Shown here piece by piece: positions 60,103 through 61,909 of a stretch of DNA of 64,000 nt; the stretch's first letter is position 1, and each line of letters opens with the position of its first letter. A program made the position numbers and the translations under genes. The notes beneath the pieces were generated by a model. It had not been told where the DNA came from. It saw only the letters and a program-made list of their open reading frames with translations, and searched no databases. This DNA comes from Leuconostoc lactis (GTDB taxonomy: Bacteria; Bacillota; Bacilli; Lactobacillales; Lactobacillaceae), in assembly GCF_007954625.1 (NCBI RefSeq), contig NZ_CP042420.1:62001-126000 (forward strand). Reading direction: 5' to 3'.

Positions 60103-61188
60103 TTAAAACAAGGTCATTTCTTCAAAACCACTTGGCTGTAAATTACTCATTGACAGTCCTAATAAACGAATGGCATACGGGCCTGTCACCACCTCATCAA
60201 AAATAGCTTGAGCTGTATTCACCAAGAGATCTTCAGACAGCAACCAAGGTTCTACCTGGGTGATTGCACGGGTTGTGGTATGGAATTTTTCATCCCGAAT
60301 TTTAACATTTAACGTCCGGCCAACCAAACCACGGGTCTTCAAAGCCGCAATCATACCACTCGCTAACTTTTTAAATTCAGCACGTACCAGTTCATCATGG
60401 TGTAAAAACTGCGCAAAAGTTTCCTCTTTACCTACTGATTGCTGTTGGCGTTGCCACTTCACTTCACCAAAATGGACACCACGCGCCTGCCAGTAAAGAT
60501 TTTCACCTAATTTACCATACTGCGCCACTAACGTTTCGCGTGATAATTGCCGCAATGCAGCACCATCAAGTACGTTAAGCGCTGCTAACTTGGCTTGCGT
60601 TTTCTCACCAACGCCGCGAAATTCACCAATTGGTAAGTGATCTAAAAAAGCGAGACGGTTTTCCGGCGTAATCACCGTCACGCCGTTTGGCTTATTAAAT
60701 TCAGACCCTAGTTTTGCTAATAGTTTGTTATACGATACGCCCACCGAACTGGTCAACCGCGTCTGTTTATAGATATCGTGTCGTAACTCGGCAGCCAACA
60801 TTGCGCCCGACAACGCATTATCGGTCACATCTAAGTAGGCCTCATCATACGCCACCGGCTCGATTTTTGGTGTAATTGTCCGAAAAATGGCATGAATTTG
60901 CTTAGAAATGGCTTTATACTTGGCAAAATCCGGGGTCAAAAAGATCCCGTCTGGCGCTAAACGCCGTGCTTCTGCGGATCGCATGGCCGAATGAATGCCG
61001 AGTTGGCGCGCGACATAGTTCGCCGTCGTCACCACCCCGCGACCCCCAGTTTCTGCTGGATCACGCGAAATGATTAATGGCTGGTGGCGTAATGCCGGAT
61101 TGTCACGCATTTCGACTTGGGCATAGAAGGCATCAATATCAACATGGAGAATTTTACGTGTATCAGTTGTCAATAAAAACTCTGTCAT
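60103..61188 (-). CDS. dinB: DNA polymerase IV
   Basis: Y-family translesion polymerase of 361 aa. LHVDIDAFYAQVEMRD and AYDEAYLDVT hold the catalytic carboxylates; the thumb IGEFRGVGEKTQAKL and little-finger region follow. The last segment MSNLQPSGFEEMTLF resembles the beta-clamp-binding end (QMTLF type). A perfect LexA-type box lies 23 bp upstream, so SOS control is likely. ATAGGG precedes the ATG. Confidence 0.96.
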   Translation of the reverse strand: MTEFLLTTDTRKILHVDIDAFYAQVEMRDNPALRHQPLIISRDPAETGGRGVVTTANYVARQLGIHSAMRSAEARRLAPDGIFLTPDFAKYKAISKQIHAIFRTITPKIEPVAYDEAYLDVTDNALSGAMLAAELRHDIYKQTRLTSSVGVSYNKLLAKLGSEFNKPNGVTVITPENRLAFLDHLPIGEFRGVGEKTQAKLAALNVLDGAALRQLSRETLVAQYGKLGENLYWQARGVHFGEVKWQRQQQSVGKEETFAQFLHHDELVRAEFKKLASGMIAALKTRGLVGRTLNVKIRDEKFHTTTRAITQVEPWLLSEDLLVNTAQAIFDEVVTGPYAIRLLGLSMSNLQPSGFEEMTLF

Positions 61189-61210: not shown

Positions 61211-61224
61211 CGAACATGGGTTCG
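61211..61224. promoter_or_regulatory. LexA/DinR-type SOS box upstream of dinB
   Basis: CGAACATGGGTTCG matches the Gram-positive LexA consensus CGAAC-N4-GTTCG in both half sites. It lies 23 bp before dinB, over the likely promoter (TGATAAGAT extended -10). Confidence 0.85.
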
Positions 61225-61245: not shown

Positions 61246-61376
61246 AAAAAAAACCCTGACCGAAGAGGGCAATGGTCAGGGGATGATAACCGTAGCTATC
61301 GATTTATCAATCAGTAATTGGGGGGCTGATTGAAACATTACTAGGGGAGTAATGAAACTCAAATATCTTTGAGTAT
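61246..61376 (-). ncRNA. Candidate small RNA with C-rich hairpin loops
   Basis: A TATAAT at 61383-61388 is followed by about 130 bases that fold into successive hairpins. These are ACTCAAA/TTTGAGT-type (61357-61374); CATTACT with loop CCCCT (61336-61354); and TCAATCAG with loop CCCCCCAATTA (61307-61333). It ends in a strong terminator (CCCTGACC/GGTCAGGG and eight T, 61246-61281). No reading frame of useful length or ribosome-binding site is present. C-rich loops of this kind pair with GGAGG sites in known Firmicute regulatory RNAs such as RsaE/RoxS and LhrC; identity with any of them is not evident. A second -10 (TATAAT, 61428-61433) could give a longer form. Confidence 0.6.
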
Positions 61377-61480
61377 GTTTTTATTATATACCTTCATGCG
61401 ATTTTTGCATATATCACAACTTTTGCTATTATATTACGCCTCTATGACAAGTCCATATCCCATATTATTTTCCCGTGTCC

Positions 61481-61549: not shown

Positions 61550-61909
61550 TTATACGTCGCGACGACGTTCCTTGATACGTGCTGCCTTACCTTGCAAAGC
61601 GCGGAGGTAGTACAACTTGGCACGACGAACGGCACCATAGCGTACAACTTCAATCTTATCAACACGTGGTGAGTGCAATGGGAATGTACGTTCCACACCA
61701 ACACCAGATGAGATCTTACGCACTGTGTAAGTTGCTTGAATACCAGCACCCTTACGCTTGATAACAACACCTTCGAACAATTGGATACGTTCACGTGAAC
61801 CTTCGACGATCTTAGCGTACACCTTAACAGTGTCACCAGCGCGGAAGTCAGGGATGTCAGAACGCAATTGTACTGATGTAACGTTTTCTAAAATACTGTT
61901 TTGACGCAT
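61550..61909 (-). CDS. rplS: Ribosomal protein L19
   Basis: 50S protein at the 30S-50S interface, 119 aa. [53 protein letters not shown] and the end KAARIKERR are typical. It has its own promoter, leader and terminator. In most Firmicutes it is the last gene of rpsP-rimM-trmD-rplS, but here it stands alone. Confidence 0.97.

Follow-up and report, generated by a model that had tools for sequence, protein, structure and literature searches.

In the present study a stretch of 64,000 nucleotides from Leuconostoc lactis (the window) was analysed, and it was found to contain, between rplS and dinB, a putative gene for a small RNA (sRNA). Comparison with relatives shows that this RNA gene, as read from the DNA, has its own -10 box, a predicted fold of five hairpins and an intrinsic terminator, and that it is kept in Leuconostoc and Weissella despite a change of neighbours. 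The same comparison shows that in Leuconostoc and L. fallax a direct repeat precedes the gene at a constant spacing, and that the C-rich loops of the predicted hairpins are strongly conserved. In our opinion the gene probably codes for a stand-alone, trans-acting and Hfq-independent sRNA, which would be activated by a regulator of the OmpR family (probably WalR) and would cover ribosome-binding sites with its C-rich loops.

A preliminary description of the window had proposed a new sRNA at this place, and the proposal is supported by its presence in 19/19 Leuconostoc genomes, by covariation, by the changing neighbours and by the lack of a match in Rfam. It had wrongly taken the host for a Weissella; the host is a Leuconostoc, closest to L. 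lactis. Two features had escaped it, namely the conserved direct repeat and one more C-rich loop, the third. The features are as follows (bp, base pairs).

61246-61376, minus strand: sRNA gene of about 131 nucleotides (nt); start placed from the -10 box, 3' end at the final T of the terminator
61383-61388, minus strand: -10 box TATAAT; TATAAT, TATACT or TATTAT in the aligned relatives
61357-61374, minus strand: hairpin SL1, A/U loop without a C-run (predicted fold)
61336-61354, minus strand: hairpin SL2, loop CCCCU (CCCCT at 61347-61343; predicted fold)
61307-61333, minus strand: hairpin SL3, with CCCCCC (61325-61320) in the loop (predicted fold)
61285-61300, minus strand: hairpin SL4, without a C-run, covarying (predicted fold and alignment)
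61246-61281, minus strand: hairpin SL5, the intrinsic terminator, loop AUUGCCCUCUUC, then eight T (sequence and fold)
61211-61224, minus strand: LexA-type box CGAAC-N4-GTTCG of dinB, outside the RNA, 22 bp past the T-run (sequence)
61396-61410, minus strand: inverted repeat ATGC-N7-GCAT, in 2/19 Leuconostoc loci (the window and its nearest relative only)
61433-61449, minus strand: direct repeat TGTCAT-N5-CGTAAT with an 11-bp period, proposed site of a WalR-type response regulator (promoter comparison)

Most of the earlier reading of these features held. The TATAAT is a conserved -10 box (61388-61383), the terminator is indeed of the textbook kind, with an 8-bp stem (61281-61254) and a T-run at 61253-61246, and it ends 22 bp before the LexA-type box as had been stated. 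CCCCT and CCCCCC do lie in loops, as claimed; the count of two loops was too low, as the terminator loop (61273-61262) is also rich in C and U (CCCUCUU), which brings the C-rich loops of the RNA to three (SL2, SL3 and SL5). The ATGC-N7-GCAT repeat is real, and its suggested role as an operator is unsupported, the repeat not being conserved. No good match to a -35 element was seen by eye at the RNA promoter. A second TATAAT (61433-61428), overlapping the end of the direct repeat, is present in 3/19 Leuconostoc loci. The minus strand also carries rplS (61550-61909) and dinB (60103-61188), identities that Pfam confirms; rplS has its own hairpin followed by seven T (61539-61517), 5' of the direct repeat.

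Fold, covariation and distribution

The minus strand at 61424-61244 folds into the five hairpins with -45.8 kcal/mol (z-score -4.93; 0/200 shuffles equally stable). For the plus strand at 61246-61433 the z-score is -2.61, with 1/200 shuffles equally stable. An RNA on the opposite strand, which would show GGGG loops in the manner of CsrB, was set aside because the promoter, the terminator and the better fold are all on the minus strand.

Covariation was examined in a Leuconostoc alignment (A1), made of 18 of the 19 cores with L007 dropped because its core is that of L006, and in a Weissella-set alignment (A5) of 15 Weissella sequences and L037 from g19, another genus of Lactobacillaceae. Left out of A5 were duplicate genomes, the rearranged L036, L066, whose 3' end differs, and L079 and L080, which match in part; two mixed alignments (A2, A3) had misaligned arms and were kept out of the counts. 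In the Leuconostoc set 98.0% of 664 cells hold standard pairs and 6/37 pairs are altered on both sides (0/500 shuffles as high), and four of five pairing measures beat all 500 shuffles. In the Weissella set 83.1% of 836 cells pair, 35 of the 54 pairs are altered on both sides, and double-changed cells number 110 against a shuffled mean of 43.3. The covariation score of this set is 0.371, against at most 0.143 when the partners are slid, and in both sets the partner-slid controls are far lower. It should be noted that the seven pairs of SL2 are invariant across Leuconostoc. The most constant stretch is the one formed by its 5' arm together with its loop (UUCAUUACUCCCC), which persists between the genera while the 3' arm differs, which is the pattern expected of a pairing site rather than of a mere stem. 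In one Weissella-genus genome (G071) the copy behind htrA (L036:1501-1678) is rearranged, with four hairpins bearing CCCC-type loops and a separate terminator.

By blastn the gene is present in one copy per genome in 19/19 Leuconostoc, the closest locus being that of L. lactis KCTC 3528 (99% identity over 218/221 bases). Two covariance models were built, R1 from the 18 Leuconostoc cores and R2 from the 15 Weissella sequences and the one of g19. R1 matched 19/251 genomes of the family, including L. fallax, five Weissella, one of g19 and one of genus g15 that looks like chance, and on a closer look 23/28 Weissella-genus genomes. R2, which had no Leuconostoc in its training, found 19/19 Leuconostoc at E <= 7e-5 and recovered four of the five Weissella-genus genomes missed by R1; with either model at E <= 0.01, 27/28 of these genomes match, the weakest being G071 (R1 alone, E 0.0016). 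Altogether R2 matched 70/397 genomes, including 4 of g19 and 23 of genus g16, and among 295 genomes drawn from the order its 8 matches were all Lactobacillaceae. No mobile copy was found: 72,556 plasmid and 50,697 phage records were searched without a match, and IMG/VR gave none by pattern. A pattern scan of named genomes returned 24 contigs, of which two (L057, L058) come from unrelated phyla or orders and have no R1 match. Some weak R1 matches were taken as chance, namely G171 of g15 (E 0.008), whose fold has no C-loop hairpins, L032:655-764 (E 0.26), L113:409-543 (17.1 bits) and L109:3646-3765 (12.1 bits).

The g16 matches are weak (R2 E 7e-5 to 0.01; R1 20.6-23.8 bits in 7/7 loci tried, as against 17.1 bits for a chance match of that search). 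The g16 RNA has TTTCATT, ACTCCCCC and CCCCCAATT in common with the Leuconostoc/Weissella RNA and is a probable distant member from a fifth genus. Its loci (L102-L118), 13 of which were aligned with a mean column identity of 96%, have C-loops like those of SL2 and SL3; upstream there is one more stretch resembling a hairpin, and the loop of the terminator has no C-run.

The neighbours of the RNA differ between lineages. In Leuconostoc a LexA-type box (GAAC-N4-GTTC) lies 3' of it in 13/19 loci, and box and dinB start are missing in 6/19; L. falkenbergense (L013/L040) has gntP upstream and no dinB, and its relative L014 is similar in the alignment. The order in L. fallax is gnd-gntK-gntP-RNA (gntP by NCBIfam). 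In Weissella, htrA is upstream on the same strand in 12/12 loci whose open reading frames (ORFs) were read, a crude HtrA-like peptide motif precedes the RNA in 21/23 loci, and walR-walK-yycH-yycI-walJ genes precede htrA in the five loci long enough to show them. The wal-htrA genes upstream of the RNA in W. oryzae were checked by Pfam, and the Weissella WalR scores above the NCBIfam YycF cut-off. In g19 the RNA is flanked on one side by a CBS-domain gene resembling CorC/HlyX, which scores below NCBIfam cut-offs, and on the other by gnd in 3 loci and by gntP in 1. Gluconate genes recur beside the RNA in three lineages. Taken together, the changing neighbours (rplS-dinB, gntP, walRK-htrA, gnd) argue that the RNA travels alone and is not a dinB leader.

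As the RNA lies between rplS and dinB on the strand of both, one might take it for a cis-acting 5' leader of dinB or for the 3' end of rplS. We consider this extremely improbable. A strong terminator stands before the LexA-type box, which is separate; rplS has a hairpin and T-run of its own (see above), the box and the dinB start are missing 3' of the RNA in the 6 Leuconostoc loci mentioned above, and neither gene adjoins the RNA in L. fallax or in the Weissella loci read. The earlier view that it is no dinB leader is thus supported, the RNA being kept even where dinB is not adjacent. Equally hard to credit is an mRNA for a small peptide. A frame starting with TTG can be drawn through SL1-SL2; however, no ORF of at least 30 amino acids exists inside the RNA on the minus strand, in agreement with the preliminary description. 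Moreover, the pyrimidine runs differ in length across loci (5-7 in SL2, 6-7 in SL3), so that any reading frame would shift, and the changes follow base pairing.

Three side observations concern these neighbourhoods. In L. falkenbergense (L040:5317-6767) the gntP beside the RNA is in two overlapping frames (199 and 297 amino acids) and is perhaps a broken gene. The window's own genome has a 640-bp htrA-rlmH gap (L150, C1 near 710690) at the position where Weissella has the RNA gene; it contains several TTATCCACA/TGTGGATAA boxes and is perhaps oriC. Just 3' of htrA in this gap stands TTTACACATTTTTTACA, an 11-bp repeat resembling some Weissella sRNA promoters.

The promoter repeat and its candidate regulator

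The most regular features shared upstream of the RNA are the -10 box and the direct repeat of 11-bp period. Among dereplicated promoters, hexamer repeats at lag 11 with at least 5/6 identities were found in 9/10 of Leuconostoc/L. fallax, 17/20 of Weissella and 4/4 of g19; the next best lags gave 8 (lag 22, a multiple of 11), 15 and 4 respectively, so that g19 proves nothing alone. With 6/6 identities lag 11 gave 3, 6 and 4, and other lags at most 3, 3 and 2. The form YGTMAY-N5-YGTAAY stands 53-54 nt upstream of the aligned start in 19/20 promoters of Leuconostoc/L. fallax, against 0.01 expected, an expectation that makes no fair test as the motif was derived from the same sequences. It is present in 4/22 Weissella promoters at 29-30 nt before the start (about 23 nt nearer) and in 0/4 of g19. 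L. fallax and the four repeat-bearing Weissella promoters sit in other surroundings than Leuconostoc.

Footprints of VicR in Streptococcus mutans include TGTAATN5CGTAAT at gbpB, which has the same form as the Leuconostoc repeat (PMC4168254). The RNA promoter is probably under the control of a response regulator of the OmpR family, judging from the repeat. WalR would be the leading candidate, though not a proven regulator, because of the form of the motif and the linkage to the wal genes in Weissella. In resembling footprinted VicR sites (PMC4168254) and in adjoining the wal operon in Weissella the RNA gene is like members of the WalR/VicR/YycF regulon, and it is unlike them in that the targets named in excerpts of that literature are protein-coding.

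The WalR consensus was also tried as a genome-wide signature and rejected for want of enrichment; another form of the WalR box occurs 6 times in the own genome, against 4 for the control. Some intergenic matches to the consensus precede genes of secreted proteins (L085, and by signal-sequence reading L148 and L153, the last without a Pfam hit). At L085 (C1 760179-760195) the WalR-like site TGTAACGGTTCTGTAAC lies about 150 bp before the gene of a secreted protein with LysM and CAP domains (Pfam) and just 3' of a second fabH-like gene.

Predicted targets and the proposed mechanism

Targets were sought among 805 predicted genes from 864 kilobases, about 48% of the genome, with starts set by a simple rule and some surely wrong. 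When hairpin seeds were compared with dinucleotide-shuffled ones on the predicted start regions, the top-10 mean of SL2 was equalled by 0/40 shuffles and that of SL3 by 1/40; SL1 was not above shuffles (32/40 as good). Target prediction with the C-rich loops, suggested earlier, gave better partners than shuffles for SL2 and SL3 and not for the terminator loop. The best predicted partner of SL2 is fabH, in which AGGGGAGUUAUGGAA would pair against UUUCAUUACUCCCCU, spanning the Shine-Dalgarno sequence and the start codon. A GGGG in the fabH Shine-Dalgarno sequence is found in 10/14 Leuconostoc/L. fallax loci. The perfect complement GGGGAGTAATG of the SL2 arm and loop was rejected as a target site, since of its matches in the 19 Leuconostoc genomes 15 are at the sRNA itself and the 4 elsewhere open no convincing gene. 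Hfq was matched in 0/19 genomes, while the control gave a match in 5/14 named genomes, including Bacillus subtilis. An anti-Shine-Dalgarno action of the C-rich loops is supported by prediction only.

In the mechanism that we propose, an OmpR-family response regulator, most likely WalR, would bind the repeat and activate a promoter that lacks a good -35 element. Three parts of the RNA, namely SL2 with its 5' arm and loop, the loop of SL3 and that of the terminator, would then pair with the G-rich Shine-Dalgarno and start regions of several mRNAs, by which SL2 would be opened. Ribosomes would be excluded and the target mRNAs repressed without Hfq. The set of targets may vary with the lineage (fabH being the Leuconostoc candidate), while regulator and RNA would stay.

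A number of observations speak against this proposal. Relatedness by itself can outdo shuffles, and further pair types in the Leuconostoc set are no better than shuffles (239/500). The C-loop of SL3 is lost in L075 and L077, both Weissella-genus sequences, which together with the rearranged L036 means that the number of C-loops is not fixed. The exact WalR consensus TGTWAH-N5-TGTWAH is found in 4/20 Leuconostoc/L. fallax, 5/22 Weissella and 0/4 g19 promoters; the box in the window departs from it in having C as the fourth base of its first half and as the first base of its second; and the own genome shows no enrichment of the consensus (28 matches, against 42 for a reversed control). Pairing of the terminator loop with targets was not above shuffles (13/40 as good), and SL4, which has no C-run, also beat them (1/40 as good), so that the target test is suggestive only. 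The GGGG of fabH is absent in 12/13 loci outside the group, and in the 13th (L228), where the start is unclear, a GGGG precedes an earlier ATG. The second-best target, a livJ-like gene, was rejected as a conserved one: the gene is in 10/28 genomes and the site is absent in the 9 other Leuconostoc loci with the gene.

One alternative is a different regulator of the OmpR family, such as a PhoP/PnpR-like phosphate system or another, acting on the same sRNA; the signal would then not be the cell wall. The form TTHAYA-N5-TTHAYA is that of PhoP-type sites. Repeats of this type, which fit PhoP-like regulators and so also tell against WalR, occur in 3/4 g19 and 3/22 Weissella promoters, and the failure of the WalR consensus to be enriched points the same way. 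On the other hand the TTHAYA form is in 0/20 Leuconostoc/L. fallax promoters, the VicR-like form is in 19/20, and walRK is linked to the RNA in Weissella. We regard a different regulator as unlikely, while giving it real weight. Less probable still is that the C-rich hairpins serve to bind a protein, or to titrate it, instead of pairing with mRNAs. One RNA has several similar C-loop hairpins (four with CCCC-type loops in L036), and target pairing is only modestly above shuffles; against this, no regulator that binds C-loops is known to us from these bacteria, although no search was aimed at one.

Returning to the trans-acting sRNA under WalR, it is possible, at somewhat less than an even chance, that in the Leuconostoc/Weissella branch of Lactobacillaceae the essential WalRK cell-wall system has this RNA as its small-RNA arm. 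Driven by WalR, the RNA would silence envelope and lipid mRNAs, such as that of fabH, in a set that changes, and so tie wall turnover to translation. Leuconostoc and Weissella are genera of food fermentation. If WalR controls the RNA, an essential Gram-positive regulatory system would gain an RNA output that could be studied in food strains.

Resemblance to known RNAs

The covariance and Rfam searches and the alignment of relatives, all of which the preliminary description had named as checks, gave no overall loss of the loops, compensatory changes, and no match to a known leader. With 4227 Rfam families there were 0 matches at the gathering score in the window and in the loci of 9 relatives; the best sub-threshold match was TarA (27.1 of 80 bits, E 0.012). 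LhrC and RsaE, whose families we take to be in the library, were not among the 16 Rfam matches at E <= 10. From these comparisons the RNA shares the layout of LhrC, RoxS/RsaE and the csRNAs and no detectable homology with them.

In its predicted folds the RNA has several C-rich single-stranded sites including the terminator loop, which is the layout of the LhrC type, a resemblance only. LhrC of Listeria monocytogenes likewise carries C-rich sites at several places, the terminator loop and a hairpin loop among them, and its stem 5' arm takes part in pairing as proposed here for SL2; it is controlled by the two-component system LisRK in cell-envelope stress (PMC4132741). Unlike the multicopy LhrC, the new RNA has one copy per genome, five hairpins and WalR as its proposed regulator. 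RoxS/RsaE of Bacillus and Staphylococcus also aim several C-rich regions at Shine-Dalgarno sequences, have a conserved response-regulator site near -65, and are kept while the affected genes differ between organisms; in contrast to the new RNA they are under ResD/SrrA (PMC4409812). The streptococcal csRNAs, controlled by CiaR, are alike in the N5-spaced direct repeat before the -10 and in complementarity to the Shine-Dalgarno sequence and start codon, and differ in using an unpaired region between two stem-loops and in their CiaR repeat, NTTAAG-N5-TTTAAG; CiaH homologues were not found in Lactobacillus (PMC3091779). CiaRH is described as the one pneumococcal two-component system for which control of sRNAs is known (PMC11034029). 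As in two-component-controlled C-rich sRNAs, the new RNA appears to have its own promoter with a direct repeat of the response-regulator type.

RNAIII is among the products of the agr locus of S. aureus. YycF is reported to bind the promoter region of this locus (PMC8698359), and PMC12101431 cites the reverse link, an effect of the sRNA SprX on WalR. Connections of WalR with regulatory RNAs are thus not without precedent. No WalR-controlled C-rich trans-acting sRNA appears in passages of PMC9210968, PMC4168254, PMC8546594, PMC11034029, PMC8698359 and PMC12101431. In a literature covered mostly at the level of titles and abstracts, with few subscription journals, neither this RNA nor any base-pairing sRNA of Leuconostoc or Weissella is described; the 6S RNA of lactic acid bacteria is. 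In the g19 loci L037, L096, L115 and L116 the RNA lies 3' of the CorC/HlyX-like gene, and a pneumococcal sRNA, Spd_sr97, is located at the 3' end of hlyX with a weak putative PnpR motif (PMC11034029).
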